From SAR86 cluster bacterium SAR86E (GTDB lineage Bacteria > Pseudomonadota > Gammaproteobacteria > Magnimaribacterales > D2472), in the NCBI GenBank assembly GCA_000307935.1, contig AMWX01000002.1, positions 1-64,000 on the forward strand: 64,000 nucleotides of DNA. Reading direction: 5' to 3'. Shown piece after piece: positions 7,125 to 61,772 of this stretch; positions within the stretch are counted from its first letter, which is position 1, and the number at the start of each line of letters is the position of its first letter. The translations under genes and the position numbers were made by a program. The notes beneath the pieces are model-generated. The model was given only the letters and a program-made list of their open reading frames with translations, searched no databases and was not told where the DNA came from.

Positions 7125-8221
7125 AAATTGTATCTGAGAAAATATCTTTTGAAGATTCTTTGAAACTCCAATCTGGAGATGTTCTGTCTGGTTTTGAGTT
7201 AATGACAGAAACCTATGGAGAGCTTAATTCGGACAAGAGTAATGCTGTCTTAGTGTGCCACGCCTTCTCTGGCAATCATCATGCTGCTGGCGTTAAAAAT
7301 GGAGAAAAAAAGCCAGGTTGGTGGGATGAAATAATTGGTGATGGGAAAACAATTGATACAAAAAAATTCTTTGTTGTTTCTCTAAATAACCTTGGCGGCT
7401 GTCATGGCTCCTCTGGACCTACCTCCATAGCTGCTGATTCTGACCAACCTTATGGCGCAAGTTTTCCTGAGGTGTCGGTAAGAGATTGGGTTGAAACTCA
7501 AAAACTACTAGCTGATCATTTTGGGATTGATTGCTGGGAAATGGTTGCCGGCGGAAGCTTAGGAGGTATGCAAGCGCTTCAATGGGCAGTCTCATACCCT
7601 TCCAGAATTAAGAAAGCCGCAATTATTGCCGCCTCATCAAAAATAAGCACACAAAATATTGCATTAAATGAAGTGGCCAGAGAAATAATTAAAAAAGATG
7701 GAAGTTTTCACAACGGGGATTACATCGCTAAAGGAGAATCCCCCAAGAAAGGATTGAAAGCGGCCAGAATGCTTGGTCACATCACTTATTTATCTGAATC
7801 CAATATGCGCAAAAGGTTCGGTAGGAAGTTGCAAGATCCAGAAAATAAAATGGATGCAGACGTAAACTATGAAGTAGAAAACTATCTTCAATATAAAGGT
7901 GAGCAATTTGCTAAAACCTTTGATGCAAACAGCTATATTCTAATGACCAAAGCCATGGATAGCTTCGATCCAGCCAAAAGTTTTGATGATGATTTGGTAG
8001 CATGCCTCAAAAATGCTCGAGCTAAATTGCTCATTGCATCTTTTGATTCAGATTGGCTGTTCCCGAAAGAGTATGGATTAGACATTCAAATGTCTGCCAT
8101 TAAGGCGGGCATCAATAGTACCTATATAGAACTAGAAGGTGATTATGGTCATGATAGCTTTCTCTTTCATTCTGACCGATATTCTACCGCGCTAAAAAGC
8201 TTTTTAAATTCAAATGAATAA
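7121..8221 (+). CDS. metX: Homoserine O-acyltransferase (MetX)
   Basis: 366 residues, alpha/beta-hydrolase fold. It activates homoserine for methionine synthesis. The nucleophile is Ser146 in AGGSLGGMQAL. An Asp in ASFDSDWLFP and a His in GDYGHDSFL complete the triad, and the family segment NNLGGCHGSSGPTS lies at about 89-102. MetX enzymes use either acetyl-CoA or succinyl-CoA and the donor cannot be told from these motifs. metW follows with an 8-base overlap. With MetH encoded at 42178-45840, both ends of methionine synthesis lie in the window. Confidence 0.95.
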   Translation: MKIVSEKISFEDSLKLQSGDVLSGFELMTETYGELNSDKSNAVLVCHAFSGNHHAAGVKNGEKKPGWWDEIIGDGKTIDTKKFFVVSLNNLGGCHGSSGPTSIAADSDQPYGASFPEVSVRDWVETQKLLADHFGIDCWEMVAGGSLGGMQALQWAVSYPSRIKKAAIIAASSKISTQNIALNEVAREIIKKDGSFHNGDYIAKGESPKKGLKAARMLGHITYLSESNMRKRFGRKLQDPENKMDADVNYEVENYLQYKGEQFAKTFDANSYILMTKAMDSFDPAKSFDDDLVACLKNARAKLLIASFDSDWLFPKEYGLDIQMSAIKAGINSTYIELEGDYGHDSFLFHSDRYSTALKSFLNSNE

Positions 8222-55259: not shown

Positions 55260-55655
55260 ATGGGTTTAGAAATAATAATACCAATATTAGGAATACTGAC
55301 AGGGATGATCATTCCTCTAGCAACCTTTGTTTGGCTATATAAGGAAAGCAAAGATAAGAACAAAACAATTTTAGAGATAAGCAAAAATATAGAAGATCCA
55401 TCAAAGCTAGAAGACTTGATAACCTTGCTAGATGAAAGAAAAAAAGAGCCAATTGACTATAGAAGATCTGGGGTAATTTGCTTTTTTACTGGCGTTGGTC
55501 TTTTTCTTTTTGGTGTCTTTTTTCTTGGCTCAATCTTAAAAGGCGTGGGAGCGCTCGTCACTGCAATTGGAGCGGGACAAATTGTTGCTGGTTATCTTTA
55601 TCCCAACACTAGTGAAGAAATTACAAATGCAGTCGATGCTTTTGAAAAGAAATAA
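55260..55655 (+). CDS. Membrane protein, DUF6249-like
   Basis: 131 residues. The N-terminal segment GLEIIIPILGILTGMIIPLATFVWLYKESKDKNK is followed by a soluble helix with PSKLEDLITLLDERKKEP, and a C-terminal hydrophobic pair around 70-115. This layout resembles DUF6249. It starts the four-gene plus-strand operon and is followed by a 9-base gap. Function unknown. Confidence 0.72.
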   Translation: MGLEIIIPILGILTGMIIPLATFVWLYKESKDKNKTILEISKNIEDPSKLEDLITLLDERKKEPIDYRRSGVICFFTGVGLFLFGVFFLGSILKGVGALVTAIGAGQIVAGYLYPNTSEEITNAVDAFEKK

Positions 55656-55664
55656 GGCTTTTAG

Positions 55665-55907
55665 ATGAAGAAATATATAAAAATACATTCATCTCTTGTT
55701 GGCCTCGGAGTTGGTTTTTTAAATTTTTATTTCCTTTTCTATTCATGGGGAATGTCTTGGGAAATTAGTTTTGCGTGTGCATTTGCTCTGGGCTATCTTG
55801 CAAGCAGTGCCCTAGAGATCTTCACGGGCATAATAAATCAAGACGATCTTGATATAGATGAAGCCAAAGAAATTTCAAGCGCTGCTGCAGAATTTGAGGA
55901 AAAATAA
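55665..55907 (+). CDS. Small membrane protein, unknown
   Basis: 80 residues with two hydrophobic segments and an acidic C-terminal tail (DDLDIDEAKEISSAAAEFEEK) that ends like its upstream neighbour (EEITNAVDAFEKK). The shared tail pattern suggests paralogy or a common partner. The next gene starts immediately after its stop. No family was recognised. Confidence 0.65.
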   Translation: MKKYIKIHSSLVGLGVGFLNFYFLFYSWGMSWEISFACAFALGYLASSALEIFTGIINQDDLDIDEAKEISSAAAEFEEK

Positions 55908-56351
55908 ATGACATTTTTTAAACGCTTTTTAGTGCTTTTTACATGTGGGTCCGTACAGGTCTTTTTTGCAACTTACCTGCTACTGGAGCTGTTTGGGTTT
56001 GGTTTGGGCTGGCATCTCGCTGTTCATAATATTATGTTTGTTCCTGGTGTTTTAGTGTTCTTGGGGTCAGGTTATCTAACAATCTCCTACTATTTTCTAA
56101 GTGACGATGCATCCAATAATGCTTTATATGATGAATTTACAGCGCTTAGATATTACAAGCTTGCTACAGCAGGATATGTGATTAATGGCATTGGCATTTT
56201 TATGCTCTACTCTGCTCAAGACTGGTCTAGCTGGAGCTTTGAACTGGCTAATAATATGATTTATCAAATAGCAGCTTTTGCTTGGCTCACCTTTGGGGCT
56301 CTTTTGGTTTGGTTTTCTGTTGGCGATTATCGGGAATCAAAAAGTGGGTAA
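55908..56351 (+). CDS. Four-helix membrane protein, unknown
   Basis: 147 residues with about four hydrophobic segments. The middle loop SDDASNNALYDEFTALRYYKL is polar. It starts directly at the previous stop and its end overlaps the GTG start of the XRE gene by eight bases. It may be a sensor or partner for that regulator, as small membrane proteins with XRE regulators often are. No named family. Confidence 0.65.
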   Translation: MTFFKRFLVLFTCGSVQVFFATYLLLELFGFGLGWHLAVHNIMFVPGVLVFLGSGYLTISYYFLSDDASNNALYDEFTALRYYKLATAGYVINGIGIFMLYSAQDWSSWSFELANNMIYQIAAFAWLTFGALLVWFSVGDYRESKSG

Positions 56352-56571
56352 AAGTCATGAAAAACTTCTAAATAATTTAGAAGAATTCAGAAAGGCTGCC
56401 AACTTAACTCAGCAGGAACTATCCGAAAGTGCTGAAGTTTCTAGGAAAAGCATTAATGCGATTGAAAACGGTATTTATGTGCCTTCAACCGTTTTGGCAT
56501 TAAAAATAGCAAGAACGCTTAGCTGCAACGTTGAAGAGCTTTTTAAGCTCCCCGAAGAAAACAACATATGA
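56344..56571 (+). CDS. XRE-family transcriptional regulator
   Basis: About 75 residues from a GTG at 56344. The helix-turn-helix NLTQQELSESAEVSRKSINAIENGIYVPSTVLALKIARTL is the compact XRE type often found downstream of small membrane proteins. The start overlaps the preceding stop; a longer frame from 56278 lies inside the upstream gene. It likely binds at its own operon, possibly the inverted repeat at 55187-55237. Confidence 0.85.
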   Translation: MGKSHEKLLNNLEEFRKAANLTQQELSESAEVSRKSINAIENGIYVPSTVLALKIARTLSCNVEELFKLPEENNI

Positions 56572-56641
56572 TTTACTTGAACATTATAGTTATGATCATT
56601 TATTTCTTAGTCAATTAATTTAGGAAAAATATTTAAATATC

Positions 56642-56815
56642 ATGAATAAAAAATTTAAAAATAGTGGAAGTTGGATTGGAGTTGGCACAGCACTAGGTGT
56701 AGCATTTTATGTTGCGACAAATGACCCGACATGGATCGCGGTTGGTGTAGCAATCGGCGCAGCGCTAGGTTGGCAAAAGCCAAAAAAGAAAAATGAAGAA
56801 AAAAAACTTGATTAG
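56642..56815 (+). CDS. 57-residue glycine-rich membrane protein
   Basis: ATG at 56642, with a weak AGGA-type site upstream at 56621. The sequence is one hydrophobic glycine-zipper-like stretch (GVGTALGVAFYV and AVGVAIGAALGW) followed by a lysine-rich tail. It resembles small glycine-zipper membrane proteins. It lies 70 bases after the XRE gene and may form a separate unit. Too short for confident family placement. Confidence 0.6.
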   Translation: MNKKFKNSGSWIGVGTALGVAFYVATNDPTWIAVGVAIGAALGWQKPKKKNEEKKLD

Positions 56816-56858
56816 TTAATAAAAACTGATAATAAAAAGATTAGGCAACAAAGCTTTC

Positions 56859-57293
56859 TTAGTTATTTCTAGTTCTAACTTTTGCACACTCAACAACATC
56901 ACAGTGTGTCTTTTCCCATCTTTCAAAACTTTTGTTATCGCCAAAATCTACGTTTAAATAGAATGAATTCTTGTCACCCATGAAATTTGGTTTAAATTCT
57001 ATGTTTTCACCCACCAGGGACTCGGTACTGCTGGCTAGAATAGTTTCGGTTACCTCTCCTTTCTGAAGATTATATTTACCTTTATTAAAATGCATTTTAT
57101 TTTCTAGGTAAAACATAACCACAAACTCTCCATTCATGTACATTTTGATAGGAGTTGGGCTTGGTAAATCTTGATATTGGCCATTTACTGCATACTCAAC
57201 CAACCTCCAAGTCCCCATTAGGTCTCCTGTGCTTGCCCCATGCCCAAAAGAGAATGAAGAGAATGAACATAGTAAAAGTAAAATTTTTCTCAT
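56859..57293 (-). CDS. Exported lipocalin-like protein
   Basis: 144 residues with a signal peptide (about 1-18). The start of the mature domain, LMGTWRLVEYAVNGQ, and the repeated beta strands recall lipocalin-like / DUF4488 proteins (GxWxL). Two Cys near the C-terminus (DVVECAK region) could form a disulfide. It is the only minus-strand gene within the plus-strand accessory block. Confidence 0.65.
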   Translation of the reverse strand: MRKILLLLCSFSSFSFGHGASTGDLMGTWRLVEYAVNGQYQDLPSPTPIKMYMNGEFVVMFYLENKMHFNKGKYNLQKGEVTETILASSTESLVGENIEFKPNFMGDKNSFYLNVDFGDNKSFERWEKTHCDVVECAKVRTRNN

Positions 57294-57373
57294 ACTGACC
57301 TCCTTGGTTAATATGTATGAAAATAATATCTGTTTATAATAATCGATCTCTATAAATAAGTAGCAAATAATTT

Positions 57374-57820
57374 ATGGTTTCAAATAAAGTACAGCGATTT
57401 CTAAATTCGTGGAAAGAGGGTGTAATTGCAATAGGTAAGGTTTACGTTAATGGCGGCGATTATAAAAAATATGCACAAGAATTTATATCATCGCACTATG
57501 CTTTTAGTACTGAAAAAGTACTGTTCAAGCCAACTTTTACCAAAACAAAAATCTTTAGAAATGCGCAAGACGAAGCCCTATCTTATTTTGTAAAAGGAGA
57601 TTGTGAAGAAGATCATGGGTTTGCTCTTAAGCCATGGGAAGCAATCACATTAAAGGAATTAAACACCATTGAAGAAAACGAATTGATCGTTGCCATGGGC
57701 ACTCTAAGTTTTAAGCCTATTAACCTAGATCAAACCACTTTGGTAGCTTTTACCTTTTTATTAATAGATATTGATAATGCATTAAAAATAAAAGTCCATC
57801 ACTCCTCTCCAGTTTTATAA
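57374..57820 (+). CDS. NTF2/SnoaL-like domain protein
   Basis: 148 residues. WKEGVIAIGKVYVNGGDY, VLFKPTFTKTKIFRNAQDEALSYFVKG, EEDHGFALKPWEAI and the ending HHSSPV match a marine gammaproteobacterial NTF2-like family sometimes mis-annotated as phosphoribosyl-AMP cyclohydrolase. No HisI zinc motifs are present. A cone-shaped pocket is expected; the ligand is unknown. Two bases before the glycosylase gene. Confidence 0.75.
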   Translation: MVSNKVQRFLNSWKEGVIAIGKVYVNGGDYKKYAQEFISSHYAFSTEKVLFKPTFTKTKIFRNAQDEALSYFVKGDCEEDHGFALKPWEAITLKELNTIEENELIVAMGTLSFKPINLDQTTLVAFTFLLIDIDNALKIKVHHSSPVL

Positions 57821-57822
57821 CA

Positions 57823-58437
57823 ATGTCAGCAGAGAAAGCTTATAGACACTTGTTAAGCATTTCCAAGCGAGAGAAGCATTTTAGCTTTTATAAATTTCTT
57901 CAAAGCTCAGATATCATTTCTATTGAAAGCAGAATCGATGACTCAATTTCATTTGAGTATTTTTTAATCAAAACAATTATTAGTCAGCAAGTCTCTACCA
58001 AAGCCGCCAGATCTATTTGGGCAAAAGTGAAACTGGCCTTAGATTTAAACAATCAGCCAATTTCACTTGGTCTATTAAAAGACTTAGGCTTGTCTAAACC
58101 TAAGGCAACTTATATTTTAGGTGTCATAGAAAACAAACGTATTGCATTATCAACAAAAGAGGACCTGCAACAAATGTCTTATGAGGACCTATCAGATTTT
58201 TTGTTGTCACAAAAAGGGATTGGGCCATGGACATTAAGTGTTGTTAGAATGTTTTTTATAGCAGATACAGATGTTTTTCTTCAAGGAGACTTGGGTATTA
58301 ACAAAGCACTGGAGTATTTTTTTAAAACCAAGGATTATACTGGTGAGGATTATTCTCCATATAAAACATATTTGTGCTTATATTTATGGAGGAGCATAAG
58401 CCAGACAGCAAATGCTGCTGCTCAGCAAGATGGATAA
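57823..58437 (+). CDS. DNA-3-methyladenine glycosylase, AlkA-like HhH-GPD protein
   Basis: 204 residues. The helix-hairpin-helix is LLSQKGIGPWTLSVVRMF, followed by the catalytic Asp in VFLQGDLGINKALEYF, in the position used by AlkA. The N-terminal YFLIKTIISQQVSTKAARSIWAKV is the usual glycosylase helix. There is no Ada or N-terminal TATA-like AlkA domain. It excises alkylated purines. Overlaps the GNAT gene by 8 bases. Confidence 0.9.
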   Translation: MSAEKAYRHLLSISKREKHFSFYKFLQSSDIISIESRIDDSISFEYFLIKTIISQQVSTKAARSIWAKVKLALDLNNQPISLGLLKDLGLSKPKATYILGVIENKRIALSTKEDLQQMSYEDLSDFLLSQKGIGPWTLSVVRMFFIADTDVFLQGDLGINKALEYFFKTKDYTGEDYSPYKTYLCLYLWRSISQTANAAAQQDG

Positions 58438-58897
58438 GTTTAAAGTTGTAACCTATGACAAAAAATATAGAGTCGATTTTGAAACTTTAAATCGAGACTG
58501 GATAGAGCGTTTTTTTACAATGGAAGAAGAAGATTTTAATATTCTCAAAAATCCTGAGTCATATGTAATTAATCGGAATGGAGAAATTTTTTTTGCTCTT
58601 TATGAGGAAAGGGTTGTTGGCACGGCAGCTATGATTGCTGGCTCAGATGGAGTTTATGAGTTAGCCAAAATGGCTGTTACAAAAGACTTTCAAAGACAGG
58701 GAATCGGGCAAATGCTTTTAAATCAATGCATTAAATTTGCTAAAAAAAAGAATGCAAAAGAGATTTTCCTTATCACCAATAATATTTTAAAACCTGCGCT
58801 TAATCTGTATGCATCCTGTGGGTTTGTATTAAATGCTGGCAATGACGACGAAAGGTATCAAAGAGGAAATACCAAAATGAACCTGCTTTTAAAATAA
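58430..58897 (+). CDS. GNAT-family N-acetyltransferase
   Basis: 155 residues from ATG 58430; a start six codons earlier (58412) is in frame but deeper in the upstream gene. ELAKMAVTKDFQRQGIGQMLLNQCI has the Q/R-x-x-G-x-G acetyl-CoA loop. The middle INRNGEIFFALYEERVVGTAAMI fits N-acetyltransferases of small molecules. Substrate unknown. Confidence 0.86.
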   Translation: MDKFKVVTYDKKYRVDFETLNRDWIERFFTMEEEDFNILKNPESYVINRNGEIFFALYEERVVGTAAMIAGSDGVYELAKMAVTKDFQRQGIGQMLLNQCIKFAKKKNAKEIFLITNNILKPALNLYASCGFVLNAGNDDERYQRGNTKMNLLLK

Positions 58898-58921
58898 ATT
58901 TTATTGTATTACTCTAAGAGC

Positions 58922-59368
58922 ATGAATAATAAGATACCTCCACCTGTTGTAACTCTAATATGCGGCATAATAATTTATTTTTCTAGATCGCTATTCCCTG
59001 AGATCACATTTCAGTCAATAAACATTATTAGTGTCTTAATTCTGCTAACCGGAATAGGTACGCTGCTAACAGCTGCATCTTCATTCAAGAAATATCAGAC
59101 CACTATAAACCCATTGCAGCCTGATAAAGCAACGCACTTAGTGGTTTCTGGAATCTTTGGTATATCAAGAAACCCGATGTATCTTGGGATGGCTCTTATT
59201 TTGCTTGCCATATCAGTTAAATTTAATTTGGTAGGCGGCATTATTATCACCTTTACCTTCATTTCGTTTATAACAAAATTTCAAATTATCCCTGAAGAAA
59301 AAGCCATGATGAAATTATTTGCCGATGAGTTTTCTCATTACAAAAAACAAACAAGAAGGTGGATATAA
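58922..59368 (+). CDS. Isoprenylcysteine methyltransferase-type membrane methyltransferase family protein
   Basis: 148 residues from ATG 58922; an in-frame TTG at 58904 would add six residues. The methyltransferase core is GIFGISRNPMYLGMALIL (R-N-P-M-Y) and FQIIPEEKAMMKLFADEFSHYKKQTRRW (EE-x-x-L). Bacterial members methylate lipids or isoprenoid-like acceptors. It is the last plus-strand gene before the displaced glmS end at 59384. Confidence 0.88.
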   Translation: MNNKIPPPVVTLICGIIIYFSRSLFPEITFQSINIISVLILLTGIGTLLTAASSFKKYQTTINPLQPDKATHLVVSGIFGISRNPMYLGMALILLAISVKFNLVGGIIITFTFISFITKFQIIPEEKAMMKLFADEFSHYKKQTRRWI

Positions 59369-59383: not shown

Positions 59384-59407
59384 TTACTCCACGGTTACGA
59401 AGTTGTT
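59384..59407 (-). repeat. Displaced glmS 3' end, copy 3 (encodes FVTVE stop)
   Basis: Minus-strand codons AAC AAC TTC GTA ACC GTG GAG TAA read N-N-F-V-T-V-E-stop. The last four residues and stop match the GlmS C-terminus (K-S-V-T-V-E-stop), with third-position changes. No GlmS coding extends upstream, so it is a fragment and not a gene. Confidence 0.6.
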
Positions 59408-59453
59408 TATAACCGTTACTCGTTTAATCATTTTCATTGATTAAAAGCTGTAA

Positions 59454-59828
59454 TTAATGTTTTGCCTGTTCTTTTCTAAGAGTATAACCAGCTAATATAG
59501 CTAAAATAAATAATGCAGGTATATCTCCCAAAAAATGCCCCATTTCATGATCATCAATAATTGCTTGATAAGCCATAATTCCACCATGAACAATACTGCT
59601 CCAAACAACAAACCATACAAACATATAATGTTGTACTGGTTCTTTTGATGCAATGATCATCATAACTCCAAGAGTCATATAAACGCCTTGAATCATCATC
59701 TCATATTCCCATTGCCCCGGACTCCAAGCCCAGCCACCTAAGGGATCGAGCTTCATCATTGGTATAATTAATATAAATGCTATTCCAAAAACTCTTAAAG
59801 TATTTCTTAATATTGATAAATTATTCAT
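59454..59828 (-). CDS. Four-helix membrane protein, DUF6632-like
   Basis: 124 residues, about four hydrophobic segments. MMKLDPLGGWAWSPGQWEYEMMIQGVYMTLG and WSSIVHGGIMAYQAI are the conserved features, with a histidine pattern (HGGIMAYQ, DHEMGHFLGD) that might bind a metal or heme. It lies alone between glmS end copies 2 and 3 and has GAGAGGAAAG upstream of its ATG. Function unknown. Confidence 0.72.
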   Translation of the reverse strand: MNNLSILRNTLRVFGIAFILIIPMMKLDPLGGWAWSPGQWEYEMMIQGVYMTLGVMMIIASKEPVQHYMFVWFVVWSSIVHGGIMAYQAIIDDHEMGHFLGDIPALFILAILAGYTLRKEQAKH

Positions 59829-59862
59829 GCTTTCCTCTCAAAGTTTAATTCACTGTTATGTT

Positions 59863-59889
59863 CTACTCCACAGTAACGGATTGTTTTAG
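59863..59889 (-). repeat. Displaced glmS 3' end, copy 2 (encodes LKQSVTVE stop)
   Basis: Minus-strand codons CTA AAA CAA TCC GTT ACT GTG GAG TAG read L-K-Q-S-V-T-V-E-stop. The true GlmS end 83 bases away is L-A-K-S-V-T-V-E-stop. Nineteen of 27 bases match, and four of the eight differences are synonymous changes in the SVTVE codons, the pattern of an independently evolved glmS end rather than a fresh duplication. Confidence 0.7.
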
Positions 59890-59945
59890 AAAAGTGAATA
59901 AGTACTTCACGAGTAATTCCGTTGAAAATAATTCTGCAAACGAAA

Positions 59946-61772
59946 CTATTCCACCGTGACTGATTTGGCTAGGTTCCTAGGTTGATCTAAATCGGTTCCA
60001 CGTTGACAGGCAACTTGATATGCAAGAATTTGCAGAGGGATGGTGTAAATAATTGGAGCGAGCAACTCGCTGCATTCAGGCATTTGAATATAGGCGCCTC
60101 TTTCAAGATTAATTTTGGAATTTGGGCCGCCAAATACATAAAGAGTTCCGCCTCTAGCTTTAACCTCCTCTAAATTGGAAACAAGCTTTTCGGTTAATGT
60201 GTTTTCAGGTGAAAGTGCCACGACAGGAATCTGATCATCAACCAATGCAAGAGGGCCGTGTTTTAATTCGCCTGCAGGATATGCCTCGGCATGAATATAT
60301 GAAATTTCTTTAAGTTTCAATGCGCCTTCTTGAACGATAGGGAAGAACATTCCGCGACCTAAAAACAAAGCATTGTGTTTATCTGCAATGTTTGGAACGA
60401 TGCTAAGTATTTCATCGGAAAGCTTCAAAGTTTCTTTAATAACTTCGGGCAATGCTTTTAGTTCTGATGCAAGGTTTTTTCTTAACTCCTGGTCTCTGTC
60501 TAAGCTTTTTGCAATTGACATGGCTAACAGCATTAGGCCTGCAAGCTGAGTGGTAAATGCCTTGGTGGAGGCAACACCAATTTCTGGGCCAGCATTGGTA
60601 AATAAGACATGTTCAGATTCTCTGGCCAATGAGCTGGTTGGCACATTGCAAATTGAAAGAGTGCTCAAATAATCTTTTTCTTGAGCATATCTCAGTGCAG
60701 CAAGGGTATCTGCGGTCTCACCAGATTGTGAGATAGTTACAAATAGGGTGTCCTCTTCGACCAATGGATCTCGGTAGCGGTATTCGCTTGCAAAATCTAC
60801 ATAACATGGAATTTTGGCTATCTGCTCAAACCAAAATCTACCAACCTTGCCAGCATGCAAACTGGTGCCACAAGCAACAAACTGAATTCTTTTAATTTTT
60901 CTAAAAATTTCAGAGGAGTCCAAACCAAAGATATTATCTAGAACATCGTCCTCTCCAAACTTGCCATTGATTGTGTTAGCAACCGCATCTGGTTGTTCAT
61001 ATATTTCTTTTTCCATAAAATGAGAATATTCACCTTTGGTAACAGCATTAACAGCTATATCTATCTCAGTAACATCTCTTGTTACAGGCGAACTTTTGCC
61101 ATCATATACCTGGTAGCTTTGCTTGGTAATTTCGGCAACATCGCCGTCTTCTAGAAAAACAAACTCATTGGTAAGTTGTGAGAGGGCTAATGGATCAGAG
61201 GCAGCAAAATTTTCTTCTAAACCAACCCCGATTAAGAGCGGACTTTTGTTTCTCGCGACAATGAGTCTACTTTTATCGTTGATGTGTATGGCAGCTATGG
61301 CATAAGCACCGTCTAGCTCTTTGATTGCATCATGCATGGCAGCAAGCAGGTCACCAGAAGACTGAAGATGTTGGTGAAGCAAATGGGCTATAACTTCAGA
61401 ATCAGTTTCTGACTCAAATTGATAGCCATCTTTGGTCAATTTTTCAGTGAGCTCAAGATAATTCTCTATGATTCCGTTATGAACAATGTGAACCTCTCCA
61501 CTTGATGCATGAGGGTGAGCGTTTTGTTCTGATGGTTGGCCATGAGTGGCCCAGCGGGTGTGTGCGATTCCAAGTTTACTTTTTGGGCGCTGCTCAATCA
61601 TGCCGTCCTCAAGCAAGCTCACTTTGCCGAAAGTCCTTAAATTAAAGATGCTGTCTTTTTGATGAAGGGCAATCCCGGCTGAATCATAGCCGCGGTATTC
61701 CATTTTATGTAGGCCTTGAACTAACAACTTGCCCACGTTGCGAGATGATGCCGCCCCTATAATTCCACACAT
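59946..61772 (-). CDS. glmS: Glutamine-fructose-6-phosphate aminotransferase (isomerizing)
   Basis: 608 residues, standard length. The N-terminal glutaminase begins MCGIIGAA (Cys nucleophile after Met removal), with GIAHTRWATHG. Two SIS domains carry CGTSLHAGKVG, SQSGETADTLAAL and ISYIHAEAYPAGELKHGPLALV. It ends in DLDQPRNLAKSVTVE. It makes glucosamine-6-phosphate, the first step to UDP-GlcNAc, whose last steps are done by GlmU from the gene 1 base upstream. Confidence 0.98.
   Translation of the reverse strand: MCGIIGAASSRNVGKLLVQGLHKMEYRGYDSAGIALHQKDSIFNLRTFGKVSLLEDGMIEQRPKSKLGIAHTRWATHGQPSEQNAHPHASSGEVHIVHNGIIENYLELTEKLTKDGYQFESETDSEVIAHLLHQHLQSSGDLLAAMHDAIKELDGAYAIAAIHINDKSRLIVARNKSPLLIGVGLEENFAASDPLALSQLTNEFVFLEDGDVAEITKQSYQVYDGKSSPVTRDVTEIDIAVNAVTKGEYSHFMEKEIYEQPDAVANTINGKFGEDDVLDNIFGLDSSEIFRKIKRIQFVACGTSLHAGKVGRFWFEQIAKIPCYVDFASEYRYRDPLVEEDTLFVTISQSGETADTLAALRYAQEKDYLSTLSICNVPTSSLARESEHVLFTNAGPEIGVASTKAFTTQLAGLMLLAMSIAKSLDRDQELRKNLASELKALPEVIKETLKLSDEILSIVPNIADKHNALFLGRGMFFPIVQEGALKLKEISYIHAEAYPAGELKHGPLALVDDQIPVVALSPENTLTEKLVSNLEEVKARGGTLYVFGGPNSKINLERGAYIQMPECSELLAPIIYTIPLQILAYQVACQRGTDLDQPRNLAKSVTVE

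Follow-up and report, generated by a model that had tools for sequence, protein, structure and literature searches.

The glmS gene of SAR86 cluster bacterium SAR86E appears to end three times, because its last codons recur twice behind its stop codon on the same strand. Which process left these ends behind, and what do they enclose? We analysed the locus within a stretch of 64,000 nucleotides, referred to as the window, from an assembly of 1.4 Mb in 13 contigs that is 87.8% complete. A first-pass annotation of the window had taken the repeats for ends of divergent glmS alleles, displaced by an integrase that restores the gene end or by recombination between strains, and had regarded the DNA between and behind them as cargo.

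Three glmS ends in the window

The features of the locus are as follows.

59946..61772, minus strand: glmS, the host gene with the attachment site in its last codons; ORF of 608 aa, TIGR01135 with 802 bits
59946..59965, minus strand: site 1, the true glmS end, attL-like; AATCAGTCACGGTGGAATAG; profile score 37.1
59875..59955, minus strand: cassette 1, about 83 bp from site to site, without a gene; left arm TTTCGTTTGCAGAATTA, right end TTATTCACTTTTCTAAAACAATCC
59863..59882, minus strand: site 2; AATCCGTTACTGTGGAGTAG; AC at 59874-59873; profile score 45.4, also a pattern match
59396..59872, minus strand: cassette 2, about 480 bp, one sense gene; left arm AACATAACAGTGAATTA
59454..59828, minus strand: cargo of cassette 2, a 124-aa DUF6632 (PF20337) protein of unknown function; Pfam E 1.1e-27
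59384..59403, minus strand: site 3, final site of the array, attR-like; ACTTCGTAACCGTGGAGTAA; AC at 59395-59394; profile score 32.3

On the minus strand glmS ends with L-A-K-S-V-T-V-E-stop, while copy 2 (59863-59889) encodes L-K-Q-S-V-T-V-E-stop and copy 3 (59384-59407) N-N-F-V-T-V-E-stop. Coordinates and translations confirmed the three ends, as did a 44-bp site profile built from other genomes with the window left out. On both strands of the window the profile detected exactly three sites with scores of 32.3 to 45.4; the next best score was 2.1. Chance is excluded as their source, since two extra VTVE-stop motifs in 1.5 kb compare with 0.0005 on average over 2,000 dinucleotide-shuffled sequences. 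The exchange dinucleotide AC of site 1 was placed at 59957-59956 by the comparison of cassette exchange points described below.

The proposal of divergent glmS alleles held only in part. The old last codons are indeed present, but because the homology between the copies is limited to about 20 bp (ANTCNGTNACNGTNGARTAR) plus the arm sequences, copies 2 and 3 are, judged by sequence, recombination sites that contain old last codons and not longer ends of glmS alleles. Cassette 1 is probably a deleted or fused remnant because its left arm and right end do not match each other. The arms of cassette 2 agree in 10 of 17 columns, and its DUF6632 gene, located between copies 2 and 3, is cargo as had been suggested. 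The same was not shown for the plus-strand block behind copy 3 (55260-59368), where the profile detected no further site; the region behind site 3 may include old cassettes that lack recognisable sites. A small XRE-type regulator at 56278-56571 on the plus strand resembles a cassette protein of another genome (G006, L039:13483-13698) as well as a family with 8 members in hypervariable regions downstream of glmS.

Cassette arrays behind glmS

The wider survey used SAGs, MAGs and IMG/VR contigs. In 34 of 41 glmS loci, the window included, the glmS-end motif was repeated one to five times within 6 kb downstream. Two of the seven loci without a further motif stop at a contig edge (G010 and G033), which leaves 39 readable loci. 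Within 6 kb of the glmS stop all loci together had 75 motif copies on the glmS strand and none on the other. Farther out there were no copies, at a shuffle expectation of about 0, and in a pattern search of whole genomes nearly all motifs lay at glmS, close to it or at the edge of a contig.

Cutting at the sites defined 216 cassettes, of which 175 were distinct, in about 150 sequence groups. Their median size was about 590 bp and the largest had 5.5 kb. Most contain a single sense gene; the longest ORF was oriented like glmS in 144 cassettes and opposite in 15. Because the site list relies on the exact motif, decayed sites are missed and some of the long cassettes are fusions. Arrays reach up to 6 sites, and order and content of the cassettes differ from genome to genome. 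Alignment with relatives, the check suggested by the first-pass annotation, bore out its expectation that the content beyond glmS varies among strains, as far as the relatives compared are concerned. A genome of the same genus (G007) has no cassette, and the sequence 12 bp past its glmS stop is found 1.2-4.4 kb downstream in five relatives, where cassettes intervene.

The cargo is varied. Besides the DUF6632 protein of the window it includes HIT, sulfotransferase, GFA, DUF805 and MORN proteins, HNH and GIY-YIG nucleases, C5 and N6 DNA methylases, a beta-lactamase-fold protein, a fatty acid desaturase and a MazG-like protein. In a 5.4-kb cassette of G059 (L115:9971-14910, minus strand) two large ORFs follow an ORF of the A5 family introduced below. 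Without a Pfam run they look like modification and restriction subunits of a type III system, i.e. defence cargo.

A few sites depart from the usual layout. A site at L161:6408 (minus strand) is inverted within its array, the sole clear case seen and possibly the result of cassette inversion. Paired sites 24-27 bp apart occur at L126:6957-6995 and in L048 near oriented position 7439; the second site is formed on a left arm (AAACAGTGA-C), which insertion at a pseudo-site or a deletion could explain. In the small non-SAR86 genome G390 (L113:2434 and 3414) a nuclease-like gene separates glmS from a second site located 980 bp behind it.

The point of exchange was mapped by comparing copies of one cassette in different neighbourhoods. 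At right ends the mismatch was 4% at the base left of AC and 85% at the base right of it; left ends gave the mirror pattern with 83% left and 24% right of AC. Because agreement between cassette ends switches across AC in this mirrored fashion, the exchange is assigned to the AC of GTN-AC-NGTNGARTAR. Each insertion would thus supply its own NGT-NGA-RTAR and rebuild V-E-stop. Position -5 is A in 99% of cases and is conserved although it lies outside the search pattern; conservation extends to T at -3 and C at -2. The core, ANTC-NGTN-AC-NGTN-GANT, has approximate symmetry around AC and disregards third codon positions. To the right of the exchange point, wobble bases 5 and 8 differed in 24% and 50% of left-end pairs. 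Unless these differences arose by mutation they exceed what a strict two-base overlap predicts, which counts against the explanation that we favor below.

At positions 11-27 counted from AC, the two ends of a cassette mirror each other as inverted copies; compared with shuffled pairings, z reaches 10. Arms matched in at least 13 of 17 columns in 44% of the cassettes versus 7% by chance. Among the many arm types those with AACAG dominate, and arms vary in sequence yet keep their match. Hairpins form when joined cassette ends are folded, with z from -4 to -7.6. G-T wobble pairs were not enriched among arm mismatches; a protein binding to a dyad-symmetric circular junction thus explains the arms as well as strand pairing does, and pairing of the arms as RNA or DNA, which we had considered, is not needed to account for their match. 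No tRNA or known RNA was found at the site, and arm decay gave no significant indication of an insertion polarity with the newest cassette beside glmS.

The cassettes have spread horizontally. Two genomes of different families (G005 and G052) share one of them without a single difference in 1,376 bp, where their glmS genes are 67.7% identical. Most other cassette pairs tested were 93-99.6% identical where glmS was 63-83% identical. When about 85,000 species genomes were scanned with a core-plus-arm pattern, 91 stretches matched, most of them at glmS ends, and the named matches were mostly SAR86 single-cell genomes and MAGs, in keeping with the assignment of the window genome to SAR86. Other hosts were Porticoccaceae, Halieaceae, Woeseiaceae, Pseudohongiella and OM182 and, beyond the Gammaproteobacteria, the alphaproteobacterial PS1 clade, Rhodospirillaceae, and MAGs of Chloroflexi and Verrucomicrobia. 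The glmS of the Chloroflexi MAG is only 38-40% identical to that of the window, so that misbinned SAR86 DNA is unlikely. For viruses, two arm patterns had no match in IMG/VR and a third gave 39 matches that all lacked the core; plasmid and phage records yielded nothing relevant.

Recombinases and elements at glmS ends

A dedicated recombinase was not found among 60 relatives. Their tyrosine recombinases (PF00589) were mostly XerC and XerD with a few others, none of them at glmS, and none of 8,313 ORFs in array loci was Xer-like. HUH/Y1 and IS110 transposases were absent from the 60 genomes while controls were positive. A resolvase domain occurred in 2 of the 60. No large serine recombinase (LSR) was found in the window genome, at its 87.8% completeness, or inside any SAR86 array. 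A different serine recombinase of 526 aa lies at a contig edge of G030 (L124:325-1902, minus strand), unlinked to glmS.

PF07508, the DNA-binding domain of LSRs, did match short ORFs right behind glmS or within arrays in six genomes. This family (alignment A5) is the first ORF in about ten cassettes. In 275 class-wide genomes A5 matched four, in three of them directly at the glmS end; the fourth match (G116) begins at a contig edge. One element with A5 at the glmS end (G236) carries a small resolvase, a broken LSR and, about 33 bp past the LSR stop, a displaced glmS-like end, ATTCCATTACCGTGGAATAA.

The tail of this LSR served as a query and led to IMG/VR contigs with intact LSRs. Two of them, L271 (10,823 bp) and L272 (10,729 bp), of unknown host, each start within the final codons of a glmS gene, a different one in each contig, and have a perfect site there. 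The elements themselves span 10,571 bp in L271 (sites at 118 and 10689) and 10,538 bp in L272 (sites at 84 and 10622). At the far end an intact LSR gene with resolvase, recombinase and zinc ribbon domains (PF00239, PF07508, PF13408) is followed 33 bp after its stop by the displaced site, i.e. attR; the LSR of L271 has 548 aa. Once the ends of either element are joined, the core is flanked on either side by the arm TGGAATAAATTTCG, and an intact glmS end results when the L272 flanks are joined at AC. The sequence right after the displaced site of L271, GTTTAAGCGGTGAAATTA, is an arm of the cassette type, which puts this element in front of a cassette. Both elements also encode a C5 methylase and a small resolvase, the latter being a second candidate enzyme. 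No such glmS-end site was found at 18 unrelated LSR loci.

The combination of three LSR domains thus occurs in L271 and L272, and neither in the window nor in SAR86 arrays. A restored end, a displaced end and a two-base exchange region are seen in L271 and L272, and for the cassettes the exchange lies within AC, a position that had been worked out from the cassettes ahead of the discovery of the LSR. The earlier suggestion that an integrase restores the gene end and leaves displaced ends is supported by these related elements. Overall the first-pass reading is essentially right, and the system is much larger than it proposed.

Competing explanations and known systems

The most probable explanation, which we hold with good confidence, is gene-end-restoring integration driven by an LSR, with cassettes devoid of a recombinase stacked into integron-like tandem arrays. 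A cassette with its own copy of the site would exchange with the glmS end inside AC, bringing a new V-E-stop and displacing the old last codons downstream, and with repeated insertion small genes oriented like glmS would accumulate in tandem. Because inverted arms about 11-27 bp from AC bound each cassette, the attP of a circular cassette would have dyad symmetry. The array, the exchange point in AC, the arms, the horizontal spread and the LSR element with attL and attR at glmS were directly observed. We infer that glmS ends are the attB of the LSR-element family, that cassettes pass through a circular form, that the LSR of visiting full-length elements moves them in trans, and that their genes are read from the glmS transcript. 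A two-base overlap is a hallmark of serine recombinases, and an exchange within AC fits such an overlap. On the other hand, the arms of the LSR elements differ from most cassette arms and no LSR matches the common AACAG arms.

A single exchange point within AC would also fit the exchange of one strand, cut between A and C, by a tyrosine recombinase acting in an integron-like manner, e.g. host XerC/XerD on a folded single strand. Most of the 60 genomes have no tyrosine recombinase besides XerC and XerD, joined cassette ends form hairpins, and arm sequences vary while the match is kept. Yet the array loci tested contain no ORF for such an enzyme, arm mismatches lack the G-T wobble enrichment, and there is an LSR with the identical site at the end of its own element, so that we regard Xer exchange as unlikely. 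Homologous recombination between strains with different genes downstream of glmS could leave short ends without any site-specific enzyme, and both the differing downstream content of same-genus strains and the cassettes common to several strains would agree with it. The homology of about 20 bp is imperfect, however, and confinement of the exchanges to one dinucleotide already disfavors this route; moreover, cassettes cross families and orders with very different glmS, and matched arms would not be predicted. We consider it highly improbable. Hardly any room remains for Tn7-like transposons at attTn7, even though Tn7 is known to target the 3' end of glmS: Tn7 inserts past the stop codon without restoring the end of the gene, ends of the Tn7 type were not seen, and TniQ/TnsD was found in none of the 60 genomes, though the control genomes gave no match either. 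The doubt about Tn7 voiced at the outset was borne out as far as tested.

LSR-driven integration invites comparison with SCC elements, in which Ccr large serine recombinases act at the rlmH 3' end in staphylococci. Both combine a large serine recombinase, a rebuilt 3' end of a conserved gene, tandem composite islands and members without recombinase. In contrast to SCC, defined by Ccr and rlmH, the target is glmS, the hosts are marine SAR86 and other Gram-negatives, and mostly single-gene cassettes of a few hundred bp form arrays of up to 6 sites with many arm types. With integrons the arrays share small mobile cassettes of the same sense at one fixed site and a pool common to several species. 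Unlike integrons they have no IntI integrase in or beside them, dock in the coding end of an essential gene, and split the palindrome between two cassette ends around the central AC, whereas the integron attC is a hairpin at the cassette 3' end; in addition, the related autonomous element encodes a serine and not a tyrosine recombinase. As with Tn7, the conserved glmS 3' end is a landing place across species that tolerates changes in third codon positions, but here the gene end is replaced and displaced while Tn7 leaves the gene intact upstream of its insertion. The glmS cassette system works like SCC and looks like an integron, but in target, enzyme or site structure it meets the definition of neither.

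With somewhat less assurance we think it likely that the system as a whole is a serine-recombinase counterpart of the integron, in which single-gene cassettes without a recombinase of their own all insert into the final codons of glmS, in an arrangement that lets them be read together with it. The cassettes would form a pool common to marine bacteria, among them Gamma- and Alphaproteobacteria and MAGs of Chloroflexi, and LSRs of visiting elements that differ in arm specificity would move them in trans. Integron-like arrays may then be built with a serine recombinase site. No report of SAR86 glmS cassettes or of a natural LSR site at glmS was found in the open literature searched, which did not include subscription journals and preprints. 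SAR86 are among the most abundant bacteria of the surface ocean, with streamlined genomes and few recognised mobile elements. A common docking place at glmS for single genes from a cross-family pool would explain part of their gene flow, restriction-modification cargo included. The system also offers a defined attB, the glmS end with its tolerance in third codon positions, and a directly testable LSR.

A weak likeness to SCC extends to the A5 family, which resembles the DNA-binding region of CcrB (E 1e-3). The A5 ORF behind a site (L134:7094-7453, and in L021, L067, L011, L044, L046, L110, L189, L204 and L207) shares bases with the core in a different frame, and in most cases no ATG, GTG or TTG precedes its conserved part. 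Joining the cassette ends provides an in-frame ATG in 4 of 10 cases and a TTG in a fifth, so the A5 gene may be whole only in the circle.
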